Part shown: positions 50,665 through 55,678 of the stretch, in pieces
How the letters are laid out: each line of letters starts with the position of its first letter
How positions within the stretch are numbered: position 1 is the stretch's first letter
Source: Anaerolineales bacterium
GTDB lineage: Bacteria > Chloroflexota > Anaerolineae > Anaerolineales > UBA6663
DNA: 64,000 bases
Direction: 5' to 3'
Assembly: GCA_020850595.1 (NCBI GenBank)
Contig: JADZEK010000013.1
Span: forward strand, 1-64,000
Notes under the pieces: generated by a model
Told to the model about the DNA's origin: nothing
What the model saw: the letters and a program-made list of their open reading frames with translations, nothing else
Database searches by the model: none
Position numbers and translations under genes: made by a program

Positions 50665-52047
50665 CTACAGCAGCGAGCCGCGCAGGACCACCGACGCCAC
50701 CGAAAAATAGATGATCAGGCCTGTCACATCCACCAGCGTCGCCACGAACGGCGCCGAAGACGTGGCCGGGTCCAGCCCCACCCGGCGCAGCAAGATCGGC
50801 AGCATCGAGCCGGTCAGCGTCCCCCACAACACAATGCCCACCAGCGACAGCGCTACAGTCGCGGCAATGAAAGGCCAGTACGGCCCGTATGTGCCGAAGG
50901 CAGATTGCCACAGTGCAATGCGCGCGAAACCAATGCTGCCCAGAATGGCGCCCAGCGTCAGCCCCGACAGCACCTCGCGCCGCATCACGCGCCACCAATC
51001 GCGCAGCCGCACCTCCCCCAACGCCATGGCGCGGATGACCAGCGTGGCGGCTTGCGAGCCGCTGTTGCCGCCGCTGGAAATAATCAGCGGCACGAACAGC
51101 GCCAGCACGACGGCCCGCTTTATCTCCTGCTCAAAAAAGCCCATGGCCGTGGCCGTCAGCATCTCGCTCAGAAACAGCACCACCAGCCAGCCGGCGCGCT
51201 TATGCACCATGCGCCAAAACGAGATCAGCATATACGGCTCGTCCAGCGCCTCCGAACCGCCGATCTTCTGCAGGTCTTCGGTCGCTTCCTCCGAGATTAC
51301 ATCCACGATGTTGTCGTAGTTGATCACGCCCGCCAGCCGTCCGGCGCCGTCCACCACCGGCAGTGCCAGCAAGTCATAGCGCGCCATCACGCGCGCCACT
51401 TCCTCCTGGTCGGTCCCCACTGGCAAGCTGATCACCTCCCGATTCATGATGCTCTCGATCAAGGCCTCCGGCCGCGAAGTGATGATGTCGCGCAGGCCCA
51501 CGATGCCGATCAGCACGCCCTGGCGGTCAACCACGTACAGGTAATACGGCGTGGCCGTGTCACGGTTGAGTCCGCGCAGGAAGTCAATGGCGCTCTGCGT
51601 CGTCATATGTGGCCGCAGCGCGAAGAACTCCGACGTCATCAGGCCGCCGGCCGTGTCGTCGGGGTGGCCCAGCAGCGGGATCACCTCATCGCGCTCTTCC
51701 ATCTGCGCCAGAGCGTCGGCCGCCTGCGCGGGCGGCAGGTCGCCCAGCAGGTCGGCGGCCTCATCCGGCTCCATCTCGTCCAGCACGTCGGCCAGTTGGG
51801 CTGTCGGCAGTTGCGCTGCGGCATCGGCCGCCTCCTCGTCCTCCAGTTCGGTCAGGAGGCCGGCGGCCGTTTCGCTGTCCAGTTGTGGGAGTAGCTCGAC
51901 TTGATCGTCGGCCGGTAGATCGGCGAAGGCTTCGGCCTGGTCAGCGGGGTGTAGCGTGGTCAGGGCGGCGATGGCGTTGGAGACGTTGCCGGTTTCCAGG
52001 GCGGTGCGCACCCGCTCCAGCACGCCGTCAATTTCTTTCTGTTCCAT
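50665..52047 (-). CDS. mgtE: Magnesium transporter MgtE
   Basis: A 460-residue Mg2+ channel/transporter. The cytoplasmic N domain (about residues 1-130, LHPADQAEAFADLPADDQVELL), two CBS domains (about 140-260; TPYYLYVVDRQGVLIGIVGLRDI, DLLALPVVDGAGRLAGVINYDNIVD) and five membrane helices (about 285-458) are in the usual order. The pore motif GGNSGSQAATLVIRAMALGEV is present. N and CBS domains close the channel when Mg2+ is high, so gating is built in. Upstream lies a structured leader with a small reading frame and a hairpin that can sequester the GGAGGTG ribosome binding site used by the ATG at 52047. Confidence 0.96.
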   Translation of the reverse strand: MEQKEIDGVLERVRTALETGNVSNAIAALTTLHPADQAEAFADLPADDQVELLPQLDSETAAGLLTELEDEEAADAAAQLPTAQLADVLDEMEPDEAADLLGDLPPAQAADALAQMEERDEVIPLLGHPDDTAGGLMTSEFFALRPHMTTQSAIDFLRGLNRDTATPYYLYVVDRQGVLIGIVGLRDIITSRPEALIESIMNREVISLPVGTDQEEVARVMARYDLLALPVVDGAGRLAGVINYDNIVDVISEEATEDLQKIGGSEALDEPYMLISFWRMVHKRAGWLVVLFLSEMLTATAMGFFEQEIKRAVVLALFVPLIISSGGNSGSQAATLVIRAMALGEVRLRDWWRVMRREVLSGLTLGAILGSIGFARIALWQSAFGTYGPYWPFIAATVALSLVGIVLWGTLTGSMLPILLRRVGLDPATSSAPFVATLVDVTGLIIYFSVASVVLRGSLL

Positions 52048-52050
52048 CGG

Positions 52051-52110
52051 CACCTCCACAAACAGAACGCGCCCCGCCGCCGGAAAGGCGAGCAGGGCGC
52101 GTCAGGAGGT
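52051..52110 (-). promoter_or_regulatory. Attenuator-like hairpin covering the mgtE ribosome binding site
   Basis: Read on the minus strand, ACCTCC (52110-52105) is complementary to GGAGGT (52057-52052), the mgtE Shine-Dalgarno sequence. Between them ACGCGCCC (52102-52095) pairs with GGGCGCGT (52074-52067), capped by CGCC/GGCG, and is followed by the T-rich TTCTGTTTGT. This can act as an intrinsic terminator or as a translational block. A competing CGCGCC (52124-52119), just after the upstream small reading frame, can pair with GGCGCG of the same 3' arm. It does not resemble the M-box. Confidence 0.65.
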
Positions 52111-52126
52111 ACACGCTTGGCGCGGC

Positions 52127-52201
52127 TCAGTCTCTCGGCGGGCGGAGCAGGCGTTTAGAGTCAGGGTCTAGGTCGGCGTTCACAGTGCTTTCGTTAGGCA
52201 T
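52127..52201 (-). CDS. Candidate leader peptide of mgtE (24 codons)
   Basis: A short reading frame from ATG at 52201 to TGA at 52129-52127 codes 24 residues: it begins MPNESTVNAD, contains the acidic/proline stretch DLDPDS (residues 10-15) and then basic SKRLLRPPRD. Acidic residues mixed with Pro are known in enterobacterial MgtL, where they destabilise the ribosome when Mg2+ is low; the resemblance is in composition and position, not in sequence. The start lies only ten bases from the -10 box, so the transcript would be almost leaderless, with no room for a Shine-Dalgarno sequence. It ends 79 bases before mgtE. Coding status is inferred. Confidence 0.55.
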   Translation of the reverse strand: MPNESTVNADLDPDSKRLLRPPRD

Positions 52202-52210
52202 AGTGGGGAC

Positions 52211-52240
52211 ATTCTACGCCCGTGCCGGGCGGCGTGTCAA
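52211..52240 (-). promoter_or_regulatory. Promoter of the mgtE leader
   Basis: On the minus strand TTGACA (52240-52235) and TAGAAT (52216-52211) are separated by 18 bases. The -35 is a perfect match to the vegetative sigma consensus and the -10 differs by one base. The expected start point is around 52204, three bases before the small reading frame's ATG. Confidence 0.85.
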
Positions 52241-52297: not shown

Positions 52298-52320
52298 CTG
52301 AGCCGGGGCCTCCGGCTCAG
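52298..52320 (-). terminator. Hairpin at the end of the RCK gene
   Basis: CTGAGCCGG and CCGGCTCAG form a 9-bp stem with a 5-base loop, overlapping the stop codon of the upstream RCK gene. There is no T run after it on the minus strand, so it is a weak terminator at best. It separates the K+ genes from the mgtE promoter. Confidence 0.4.
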
Positions 52321-53003
52321 GGTATCGGCGGCCGTCCGTCCGGGCGGCCCAGCAGTTCAGCCAGCCGGTCGCGGCCCGGATCATCCACCAGCGCCAGAAT
52401 CTCGTCGCCCGCTTCCAGCACCGTAGCCCCGCGCGGCAGCAGCACCTCGCCATGCCGCAGAATGCCCGACAGCACCGTGTGTTCCGTCAGCGGCAGGTCT
52501 TTGATCTGCATGCCCACCGCCTTGGCCTCCGGGTGAATCTTCTCCTCCACCAGCGAGTAGCTGCCTCGGCGCAGCTTCAGCAGCGTCATCATGTCGCCCA
52601 GCGACATCTCCTCTTCGATCAGCTTGGCCATCACGTCGGCTTGGTTCAGCGCCACATCCACCCCGAAGTCCGGCGTGAACAACCAGGCGTTGCGCGGGTT
52701 GTTCACCCGTCCAATGATGCGCCGCACTGCATAATGAAAGCGCCCCAGCGAGGCGATGACCAGGTTGTCCTCATCGTTGGCCGTCACAGCGGCCAGCACA
52801 TTCGCCCGTTCGATACCGGCTTCGGCCAGTGTCTGCGGGTCGGTCGGGTCGCCCTCAAACACCGCTTCGGTCGGCAGTTCGCGGTGCAAAATAGACAGCG
52901 TCGTTGCGCGGTTCTCAATCAGCCGCACCTCATGGCCCTGGCCGAGCAGCAGGCTCGCCAGGTGCGAGCCTGTCCGGCCGCCGCCCGCGATAATCACAAA
53001 CAT
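52317..53003 (-). CDS. TrkA/KtrA-type RCK potassium regulator (first)
   Basis: A 228-residue cytoplasmic regulator. A TrkA-N Rossmann domain (IIAGGGRTGSHLASLLLGQGHEVRLIENR, VFEGDPTDPQTLAEAGIERANVLAAVTANDEDNLV) is followed by a TrkA-C domain (about 145-220, SYSLVEEKIHPEAKAVGMQIKDLPL, LLPRGATVLEAGDEILALVDD). Such proteins bind NAD(H) or ATP, and in some cases c-di-AMP, and gate K+ uptake systems. It lies six bases after the second RCK gene and is followed by the mgtE promoter. No TrkH/KtrB channel gene is present; the nearest importer is the KimA-like protein upstream. Confidence 0.93.
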   Translation of the reverse strand: MFVIIAGGGRTGSHLASLLLGQGHEVRLIENRATTLSILHRELPTEAVFEGDPTDPQTLAEAGIERANVLAAVTANDEDNLVIASLGRFHYAVRRIIGRVNNPRNAWLFTPDFGVDVALNQADVMAKLIEEEMSLGDMMTLLKLRRGSYSLVEEKIHPEAKAVGMQIKDLPLTEHTVLSGILRHGEVLLPRGATVLEAGDEILALVDDPGRDRLAELLGRPDGRPPIP

Positions 53004-53009
53004 GGCTGG

Positions 53010-53690
53010 TTAGTCCTTTCCGGGGAGGCGCAGAAGTTGGCGCAGGCTGGCAGCCCCGGCGGCCGTGGCGCTCACATACAAGTAGTCTCGGGTTTGCAGG
53101 GCGGTCTCCAGCGCCGGCAGCAGGGCGCGCCCGCCGCGAGCCAGCGCCACCGGCAGCGCCTCGCCCGTGGGCAGCACGTCGCCCAGGCGGCGGCCGTCCC
53201 ACGGGGCCGGCACGGCGATCTCATACACCTGCACCTCGCCGTTGCCGGCCGCCACCACGCTTTGCAGGCCGGGGTGCAGCAGCAGTTGCTCGATGCGGCG
53301 CGCGCCCCACGACGACGAGGCGATGGTTTGCAGCCCCAGCCGCTCGTAGATCGGGCCGCGCATCGGGTCATAGATGCGCGCCACCACGTGCGCCACCTTG
53401 TAGATATCGCGCGCGATGCGGGCCGTGATGATGTTGGCGCTGTCCGACGATGTGACCGCCGCCAACCCGTGCGCGTTTTCGATGCCGGCCCGCTTCAGGG
53501 CCTCCTGGTCCAGCGCGTCGCCCTGCACCATGCGCCCGCGAAAGCTCGACCCCAGCCGGTCGAAGGCCTTGGGGTTCGAGTCCATCACGGCCACCGGGTA
53601 GCTCTGCGCGGCCACCGACTGCGCCAGTTCCATGCCGACGCGCCCGCAGCCGACGATGATGATCGGATTCTTGCGTGTTTGTGTGCCCAT
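53010..53690 (-). CDS. TrkA-type RCK potassium regulator (second)
   Basis: A 226-residue RCK protein: TrkA-N domain with PIIIVGCGRVGMELAQSVAAQSYPVAVMDSNP, MVQGDALDQEALKRAGIENAHGLAAVTSSDSANII, and a TrkA-C-like domain (about 140-220, VYEIAVPAPWDGRRLGDVLPTG). The last part of the TrkA-C domain ends YLYVSATAAGAASLRQLL. Two ATGs lie close together; the second, at 53690, has AAGGA at the right distance. It is between the KimA-like gene and the first RCK gene with small gaps (20 and 6 bases), so all three are probably one operon. Confidence 0.92.
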   Translation of the reverse strand: MGTQTRKNPIIIVGCGRVGMELAQSVAAQSYPVAVMDSNPKAFDRLGSSFRGRMVQGDALDQEALKRAGIENAHGLAAVTSSDSANIITARIARDIYKVAHVVARIYDPMRGPIYERLGLQTIASSSWGARRIEQLLLHPGLQSVVAAGNGEVQVYEIAVPAPWDGRRLGDVLPTGEALPVALARGGRALLPALETALQTRDYLYVSATAAGAASLRQLLRLPGKD

Positions 53691-53710
53691 GCCCATGTCC
53701 TTGAAGTGGC

Positions 53711-55537
53711 TCAATCTTTCAGCCGGTACGGCACGTCGGTGACGACAAAGCCGCGCCGGAACACCAGCGCCAGTCGCACCAACAACGCCGTTTGGTTGTG
53801 CAATATCTGATGCCACCAGCGCGACGCCAAAAACTGCGGCATCACCACCGTGATGATGTCGTTGCGCTGGCAGGCCTCAATCCGGTCCAGGTAGGCGATT
53901 AGCGGCTCCGAAACCGAGCGATACTCCGATTTCAGCACCTCCAGCCGCATCCCATCACCCCAGCGCTCCCACTTGGCCCGGATGCGCTCCGTCTCGGCGG
54001 GGTCCGTCTCCACGTACACCGCCGTCACATCGTCCGAAAGCGTGCGGGCGTAGTTGAGCGCGTGCAGCACGCCGCGATGGACGCCCGCGATCGGCACAAT
54101 CACCCGGTGATGGTGGATGCGCGGCGGCGCGCCGTAATCCTCCAGCGAGAGTTGCGCGGCCGTGCGCACGTAGTGGCGGTGGATCTGGTAGAACATGCCT
54201 ACGATCAAGGGGATGAGCACCACCACGATCCAGCCGCCGTGCGTGAAGCGCGTCAGCACGATCACGCCCAGCACCACCAGTGTCACCACCGCCCCCAGCC
54301 CGTTGATGAACGCCAACACATGCCAGTGCGGCCCGCGCAGCCGGAACCAGCGCACCACCATGCCCGCCTGCGACAGCGTGAAGCACAAAAATACGCCGAT
54401 GGCATACAGCGGCAGCAGCGCGTGCGTGTCGCCCCGGAAAGCCACCAGCAGCAGCGCCGCCAGCCCGCCCAGCAGCATAATCCCGTTCGAGAACACCAGC
54501 CGGTCGCCCAGGTTGCCCAGCGGCCGCGGCAGGTAGCCGTCGCGGGCGATAAACGAACTCAGTCGCGGGAAGTCCGCGAAGGCGGTGTTAGCCGCCAACA
54601 GCAAAATAAACGCCGTGGCGACCTGCACCACCACATACGGCAGCCCGCGCCCGAAGATCCCCGCCGCCATTTGCGACAGCACCGTCTCGCCCTCGCGCGG
54701 CACAATCTGCAAATGGCTGGCCAGCACCGAGATCCCGATGAACATGGTCCCCAGGATCAAGATCATAGCGATCAGCGTCCGCCCGGCGTTGACCGATTCC
54801 GGCTTGCGAAAGGCCGGCACCCCGTCAGCGATGGCCTCGATGCCCGTCAGCGCCGTGCAGCCCGCCGAGAACGCCCGCAAAACAAAAAACAGCGTAATGG
54901 CCTGATCGGCCCGCAGCGCTTCCTCCGGCAGAGGCAGCGGGTGCAGGGTGCCGGTCACGTAGCGCAACAGCCCAAATGCTAGCATGCTGAAGATGCTGAT
55001 CACGAAGATATACGTCGGCACCGCAAACACGCTGGCCGACTCGCGCACGCCGCGCAGGTTGATGATGGTGATGATCGCCACGGCCGCCACCGCCAGGGGC
55101 ACCCGGTAAGGCAGCAGGAACGGCAGCCACGAAAACAACGCCGCCACGCCCGCCGCGATGCTCACCGCCACCGTCAACAAGTAGTCTATCAGCAGCGCCG
55201 CTCCGGCCACCAGCGAAGGCAGCGTGCCCAGGTTGTCTTTCGAGACGATGTAAGTGCCCCCGCCGTGCGGGTAGCTGCGGATGATCTGGTAGTACGAAGC
55301 CCCCACGATGACCAGCAGCGCGGCGATTGCCACTGCCACTTCCACCGAGATTTCCAGCGCGCCGGCCCCCGCCAGCACCAGCACGAGCAGAATTTCCTCG
55401 GTCGCGTAGGCGTTCGACGAGAGCGCATCCGAAGCAAACACCGCCAGCGCCTTAACTTTCGTCAGACGCTGGTGGTGGGCTTCCGATGTGGCCAGCGGGT
55501 TGCCAATGAGGAGACGTCGTAAGTTGAGCGCGGCCAT
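53711..55537 (-). CDS. kimA: KimA-type high-affinity potassium importer (APC family)
   Basis: A 608-residue transporter with 12 helices and a C-terminal cytoplasmic domain. From memory it aligns along its full length with Bacillus subtilis KimA (607 residues): RLLIGNPLATSEA, LTKVKALAVFASDALSSNAYATEEIL, YPHGGGTYIVSKDNLG, FSAGCTALTGIEAIADGVPAF, NTAFADFPRLSSFIARDGYLPR, and at the end WHQILHNQTALLVRLAL. KimA drives K+ uptake with protons and is inhibited by c-di-AMP in Bacillus. The ATG at 55537 matches the family N-terminus; 15 extra residues are possible from 55582. Two RCK genes follow, which is unusual because KimA itself has no known RCK partner. Confidence 0.9.
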   Translation of the reverse strand: MAALNLRRLLIGNPLATSEAHHQRLTKVKALAVFASDALSSNAYATEEILLVLVLAGAGALEISVEVAVAIAALLVIVGASYYQIIRSYPHGGGTYIVSKDNLGTLPSLVAGAALLIDYLLTVAVSIAAGVAALFSWLPFLLPYRVPLAVAAVAIITIINLRGVRESASVFAVPTYIFVISIFSMLAFGLLRYVTGTLHPLPLPEEALRADQAITLFFVLRAFSAGCTALTGIEAIADGVPAFRKPESVNAGRTLIAMILILGTMFIGISVLASHLQIVPREGETVLSQMAAGIFGRGLPYVVVQVATAFILLLAANTAFADFPRLSSFIARDGYLPRPLGNLGDRLVFSNGIMLLGGLAALLLVAFRGDTHALLPLYAIGVFLCFTLSQAGMVVRWFRLRGPHWHVLAFINGLGAVVTLVVLGVIVLTRFTHGGWIVVVLIPLIVGMFYQIHRHYVRTAAQLSLEDYGAPPRIHHHRVIVPIAGVHRGVLHALNYARTLSDDVTAVYVETDPAETERIRAKWERWGDGMRLEVLKSEYRSVSEPLIAYLDRIEACQRNDIITVVMPQFLASRWWHQILHNQTALLVRLALVFRRGFVVTDVPYRLKD

Positions 55538-55678
55538 GCCGTCCTGATTTCTAATGATGCGAGCGCGGATGCCGACCTGCAAGGGGTGATTGTAGCGTAC
55601 TCAAACCACTCGTCAAGACTCCCCGGCGACATTTTCCTGACAACTGCGCGCGGCGCCGCGCGCTGCGCTTGGCCCGCA

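Follow-up and report, generated by a model that had tools for sequence, protein, structure and literature searches.

A candidate Mg2+ leader with an acidic/proline reading frame upstream of mgtE in Anaerolineae

Introduction

What controls the Mg2+ channel gene mgtE in the Anaerolineae (Chloroflexota), a class mostly without the M-box? The question was raised by a stretch of 64,000 nucleotides from an Anaerolineales bacterium (assembly GCA_020850595.1, contig JADZEK010000013.1, positions 1 to 64,000), hereafter the window, in which a gap of 270 nt lies 5' of mgtE on the minus strand. A sequence-only reading of this DNA had proposed that the gap holds a Mg2+-sensing leader, composed of a small reading frame and an attenuator that sequesters the mgtE ribosome-binding site, and distinct from the M-box.

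Ribosomes pause or are dislodged where the first 30 residues of a peptide contain acidic residues that are neighbours or one residue apart, an effect that proline promotes (PMC11282234, PMC11552253). In mgtL, whose peptide carries the motif EPDP (PMC11282234), such drop-off at low Mg2+ turns mgtA on, an effect opposed by EttA or bL31 (PMC11282234, PMC11552253). Salmonella mgtQ uses an RNA in which pairings 1:2 and 3:4 compete with 2:3 (PMC8092293), and two reports describe a regulatory use of the Pro codons of mgtP in Salmonella mgtCBR (PMC3641672, PMC8092293). Within the literature searched, outside which most subscription papers lie, mgtL and mgtE were nowhere mentioned jointly, a search on mgtE leader frames led to enterobacterial, mycobacterial and M-box work only, and the acidic/Pro leader frames described were confined to enterobacteria and a small number of further Proteobacteria (mgtA, mgtB, corA).

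Results

The leader in the window

Every element named in the sequence-only reading was recovered on the minus strand between 52500 and 51800. A sigma-70-type promoter with an 18-base spacer (TTGACA from 52240, TAGAAT to 52211) agrees with the consensus at 11 of 12 positions; a scan of 6 kb gave 2 promoter-like sites, against 0.9 in shuffles. The ATG of a 24-codon frame, MPNESTVNADLDPDSKRLLRPPRD* (52127..52201, minus strand; ATG at 52201, stop ending at 52127), stands 9 nt past the -10 box, which puts the probable transcript start 1-3 nt ahead of the frame. Residues 10-15, by translation of the frame and by comparison, form the acidic/Pro cluster DLDPDS (52174-52157), a candidate ribosome-destabilising motif, and two Pro codons (52141-52136) lie five residues past DPDS. 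As in mgtL-type frames, Pro accompanies acidic residues that are neighbours or one residue apart, all of them among the first 30 residues. At codon level, the DPDSx5PP pattern has a single occurrence in the 5.8-Mb genome.

The stop codon is followed by a linker of 24 nt, a GC-rich hairpin, a short T-rich stretch, GGAGGTGCCG, and the mgtE ATG at 52047. Folding verified the proposed pairing around the hairpin: an outer 5' arm (GTACCTCC inside the stretch 52103..52112; p = 0.034 against shuffled linkers) is complementary to the mgtE Shine-Dalgarno sequence, with ACCTCC (52110-52105) pairing with GGAGGT (52057-52052) and enclosing the terminator-like hairpin (about 52067..52102). The Shine-Dalgarno sequence is predicted to be closed (open probability 0.01), which corresponds to the ribosome-binding site held in stem 3:4 of an mgtQ-type leader. 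The minus-strand folding suggested with that reading gave a strong structure, with an energy z-score of -4.07 for 52130-52040, where none of 200 shuffles folded as well, and of -3.13 for the whole leader. The inner stem had been put at 8 bp followed by T-rich sequence; the GC stem and T-rich stretch are there, the length being about 16 pairs with one bulge. This OFF fold is well supported. The hairpin may also act as a transcription terminator, a candidate role given the weak U-tract, as its tail is mediocre in the window (TTCTGTTTG) and poor in a sister genome (GTGAGTTT); a terminator scan of the window did not list it. An Rfam search matched no known leader or riboswitch family at this site, and the M-box covariance model (RF00380) gave zero matches in the window and in the whole genome, in agreement with the earlier view that the M-box is not the controller here.

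The gene downstream (50665..52047, minus strand) encodes a complete MgtE of 460 aa, in which a domain search found MgtE_N, two CBS domains and the MgtE channel domain, and its start is backed by relatives. Directly 5' of it lie two TrkA-like genes and a transporter gene (52317-55582, minus strand), named by eye from their translations, with a perfect hairpin, TGAGCCGG/CCGGCTCA, after the last stop (about 52318-52296). An LLGRPxDFK-like C-terminal sequence also precedes mgtE at four loci of another family, f4 (L103, L111, L116, L156), and the neighbourhood looks conserved because f4 shares it. The assembly holds a second mgtE (L009, G000:C117:29758-31080), which is distant (38% identical), has no such leader, and may be foreign, since the estimated contamination of the assembly is 9.6%.

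Conservation in relatives

The window's family was represented by six genomes, and the sole close relative compared was Anaerolineales SJ338 (L010 = G001), the sister, with an MgtE 82% identical. Its promoter (TTGACA-17-TAGAAT) is again 9 nt from the ATG, though those 9 nt differ, and its frame, MAQESAVDPDLDPDSTHPFHPPGD, has 24 codons with zero indels relative to the window leader (L004) and keeps DLDPDS and the Pro-Pro codons. Fifteen codons have changed between the two, four of them synonymously; inside DLDPDS there were three synonymous and no non-synonymous changes, against one and 11 elsewhere, a placement of synonymous changes with a chance of about 0.009 by hand count. Frames from f4 and a further family, f3, read MSAFADPDSDPLKPGR..., MNTDPDSHLQPAPPGTSP, MNTDPDSYQQTAPPGITHC, MTSDNPDPDSYIHTALLRST and MSTDPDSQIPTALHDNA. 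DPDS is common to families f1, f3 and f4 as GAY CCN GAC TCN, with changes at third codon positions only. The longer pattern DPDS-x5-PP is common to four leaders (the window, the sister, L104 and L111), and L116 and L156 retain DPDS with PP missing. A third genus of the window's family has the frame MNTDSPDLDSSKPPPAP and a fourth the weaker MDAGPSSHKLNLSPLP. The peptide outside the cluster varies freely among relatives, and the near-leaderless start is confined to the window genome and its sister. Judged from these codon changes, selection acts on the peptide and is restricted to the acidic cluster and Pro-Pro; the two conservation checks proposed at the outset, of synonymous against non-synonymous change and of the Asp/Pro cluster, thus came out in favour of the frame. 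In L103 (G034), a close relative, the hairpin is retained and TTCATCGT-type tandem repeats stand in place of the frame.

The fold over the start region recurs as well. The sister has a hairpin ACGCGCC...GGCGCGT, and its GUUCGCCUUU pairs with GGAGGUGAAC over 10 positions. From the stop to mgtE, all eight window-type leaders folded much better than shuffles (z -2.7 to -5.9). In six leaders, L116 and L156 not being among them, the linker paired with the start region above the level of shuffled linkers (p 0.004-0.054), and the start-hiding duplex had a combined p of 3e-6 over seven leaders, which are partly non-independent, or of 4e-4 over four. The partner of the linker is the Shine-Dalgarno sequence in f1 and f3, and the AUG with the first codons (GUUGUUCC/GGAACAAC) in f4. 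That different sequences achieve the same closure is a good argument that selection acts on the closing of the start region, and it bears out the expectation that the ribosome-site-hiding fold would be found in relatives.

Candidate ON folds

The element proposed to open this fold was a second copy of CGCGCC just past the frame stop (52119..52124), competing for the 3' arm of the hairpin. The copy exists, and was rejected as competitor: it offers 5-6 pairs against a 16-pair hairpin and is not conserved. When the frame plus 14 nt past its stop was tested for pairing with the hairpin 3' arm, p was 0.11 in the window and 0.72 in the sister, and the best site in the window lay inside the frame. 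The frame 3' end (codons 16-22, 52136..52155) could pair with the hairpin 3' arm (52081-52067) with a dG of -27.3 (p = 0.107, not significant by itself); the pairing is absent in the sister and not conserved in f1, and giving up the hairpin costs the best window fold only 3.7 kcal/mol. In f4 the corresponding duplex is significant and covaries (CGCGCCCC/GGGGCGCG versus CGCGCUUC/GAGGCGCG), with p values of 0.003-0.06, and Fisher's combination over the leaders gave 0.005. The frame's own 3' end is consequently the better ON candidate of the two, at p = 0.107 in the window. A linker hairpin masking the terminator 5' arm, with the anti-Shine-Dalgarno sequence in its loop, seemed conserved and was discarded at p = 0.25 against shuffles. 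When the leaders were folded at equilibrium, either bare or with a ribosome placed as far as the stop, the Shine-Dalgarno sequence stayed closed in every window-type leader and no switch was seen.

Acidic/Pro frames before mgtE

About 200 mgtE upstream regions were gathered from the order and the class, giving 172 non-redundant regions from Anaerolineae. A frame was counted if it began with ATG, had 10-60 codons, ended at least 30 nt before mgtE, and carried in residues 2-15 at least two acidic residues and at least one Pro, at least four in total; this criterion is the generic acidic/Pro feature of the sequence-only reading, sharpened after an initial look at the leaders, and contains no sequence motif. 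Such frames preceded mgtE in 50 of the 172 regions; dinucleotide shuffles gave 17.0±3.7, and the reverse strand gave eight. Regions from other phyla gave 3 of 51 (3.5 expected) and other genes at the same loci 4 of 99, or about 1 of 96 after removal of three unfiltered mgtE genes. The enrichment is specific to mgtE, and the leader is tied to this gene across a Chloroflexota class, as had been supposed. Judged in the same way, the frame is missing from about 70% of the mgtE genes of Anaerolineae, and most Anaerolineae outside the families listed have no recognisable one. As a second target of acidic/Pro frames corA was set aside, the count there (6 of 68) being at chance level, apart from one genus with the second design described below. 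In family f18 (L187, L199, L205) a recurrent frame, MNxEGLEPKxxxxxAPxR..., lies before mgtE near TTGACAAC and is a possible third variety.

A second leader design

At about 27 loci (L195, L225, L227, L239, L243, L084, L191, L247 and about 19 more), the last 150 nt before mgtE hold an acidic frame of the form (V/M/L)(D/E)D..S..PSS.KG..., which often starts with GTG or TTG, and after it a different RNA. Three helices covary in this RNA: P1 joins the last frame codons to a post-stop segment, P2 joins a CCCCC lying past the stop to GGGGG and opposes sequestration, and P3 pairs GCCTCC(GGG) with the mgtE Shine-Dalgarno sequence and closes it. Two-sided changes occurred in seven of the eight pairs of P1, and the covariation score was reached by none of 500 shuffles and by slid versions to half at most. 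P2 and P3 are mutually exclusive, which gives the layout 1:2 and 3:4 versus 2:3, and P1 and P2 possibly form an H-type pseudoknot around the stop codon. The frames keep DD or ED, often with one Pro only. At the first acidic position Asp occurs 10 times and Glu nine times, with codon positions 1 and 2 invariant and the third free, an alternation that speaks for the peptide; the pre-stop stretch CTGYCAACCGAATA is conserved across different reading frames, which speaks for the RNA.

Rfam contained no family matching this RNA. A covariance model (R1) had matches, mostly before mgtE, in 12 of the 199 genomes of the class and in 2 of the 350 genomes of the phylum. The window leader does not belong to this design, R1 having no match there (the best in the window, at 10 bits and E 1.5, lies elsewhere). 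In the equilibrium folding described above, 6 of the 27 leaders of the second type switched in the expected direction and one in the opposite, and most stayed closed. In one genus (genomes G315 and G378) an element of this design with the frame VDDESASRS... lies about 260 nt 5' of corA (L338, 130-230, plus strand; L339, 343-443, minus strand). A further element of this kind, with the frame MDDNQLEDGRPSTRKEYLTRLCPANRIS, lies about 200 nt 5' of an ABC transporter permease gene (L276, about 1440-1600).

Discussion

This study focused on the function of the leader that precedes mgtE in the window. We consider it fairly probable that it is a Mg2+ leader of the mgtL/mgtQ type, which regulates mgtE through translation of its acidic/Pro frame; by analogy with those systems, dependence on Mg2+ is likely. 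With adequate Mg2+, ribosomes would finish the frame and the OFF fold would form, hiding the mgtE start region. At low Mg2+ they would pause or fall off at DLDPDS and leave the frame 3' end bare, which could then pair with the hairpin 3' arm and open mgtE to transcription and translation. The default state would be OFF, with ON following an abort at DLDPDS. In the second design a post-stop segment would take the corresponding step by pairing with the anti-Shine-Dalgarno arm, so that 2:3 replaces 1:2 and 3:4. Of the separate peptide-plus-attenuator switch proposed by the sequence-only reading, the conserved frame, cluster and hiding fold and their link to mgtE have held up, and the weak CGCGCC competitor has not.

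The leader is akin to mgtL and mgtQ in its working and a member of neither, as gene, phylum and RNA all differ. Like mgtL of mgtA in E. coli and Salmonella, it is a short frame of a Mg2+ importer with spaced acidic residues and Pro in the first 15 residues (EPDP versus DLDPDS), whose translation to the end is expected to leave the gene OFF (PMC11282234, PMC11552253). Unlike mgtL, it precedes mgtE rather than the gene of a P-type ATPase, occurs in Chloroflexota, is near-leaderless, and has a site-hiding fold with a terminator-like hairpin where mgtL has a Rho-dependent terminator. Since the gene downstream is mgtE and not mgtA, the frame is no orthologue of mgtL; the likeness is functional only, and homology of the short frames is not claimed. 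With mgtQ, in the Salmonella mgtC-mgtB intergenic region, it shares an acidic frame beside a fold that hides the ribosome-binding site of a transporter gene, and the layout of the second Anaerolineae design is identical (PMC8092293); mgtQ, however, has eight codons and lies within an operon, whereas the window leader has its own promoter and its 2:3 arm is only a candidate. In enterobacterial corL, too, translation of an upstream frame lowers expression of a Mg2+ channel, that of corA (PMC11552253), but corL is reported to have a single conserved Pro and to act via Rho, and no comparable acidic cluster is described for it in the text consulted. The M-box (ykoK leader, RF00380) of Firmicute mgtE likewise controls mgtE-type genes, but is an RNA aptamer, absent from the window genome and present in only 5 of 120 class genomes.

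Other explanations share much of the evidence. The stability of the OFF fold in all folding conditions tried, where no equilibrium switch was seen, together with a tested anti-terminator hairpin that was not significant, would suit a static damper, in which the fold sets a fixed low level of mgtE translation (perhaps of transcription) and the frame is incidental or merely brings ribosomes near; given that the DPDS peptide is conserved, that acidic/Pro frames are enriched specifically before mgtE, and that two RNA designs have a common kind of frame, we regard this as unlikely. It is rather less likely again that the frame responds to the supply of Pro-tRNA, or to the activity of EF-P on its Pro-Pro codons, instead of to Mg2+. 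The mgtP codons of Salmonella mgtCBR offer a proposed precedent (PMC3641672, PMC8092293), and PP stands near the frame end in f1 and in L104 and L111; L116 and L156, however, have DPDS without PP, the second design keeps DD or ED often with a single Pro, and the regulated gene is a Mg2+ channel.

A sensor of Mg2+ or another ligand made of RNA only, with the frame a by-product of conserved RNA, would account for the retention of the second design's pre-stop stretch in different reading frames and for its possible P1/P2 pseudoknot. We hold it to be improbable, slightly more so than the proline signal: the DPDS codons of window-type leaders differ between families in their third positions, Rfam families were all unmatched, and a P1/P2 pseudoknot stabilised by Mg2+ would open mgtE when Mg2+ is high, the opposite of what an importer calls for. 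A random small frame beside a GC-rich hairpin in a GC-rich genome could be thought of, as about 10% of shuffled upstream regions also yield such frames. Chance is nevertheless very improbable, being contradicted by the sister genome, by conservation there and in two other families, by the significance of the fold, and by the enrichment controls.

The reading we prefer, an mgtL/mgtQ-type leader, makes the acidic/Pro leader provisionally new for mgtE and for Chloroflexota. More tentatively, and with distinctly less confidence, we suggest that different bacterial phyla have independently reused the instability of nascent chains at low Mg2+ as a sensor. In Anaerolineae, acidic/Pro frames would be linked to mgtE by two or more RNA actuators without detectable mutual relation, among them a conserved RNA not described before (P1/P2/P3, perhaps with a pseudoknot) that also occurs before corA in one genus. 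The many leaders of Anaerolineae amount to a natural mutant library for finding the residues that matter. If the proposal is true, ribosome instability at low Mg2+ would be a general bacterial sensor, here serving an unrelated transporter, and it would provide a possible means of mgtE control in a class where the M-box is mostly missing.
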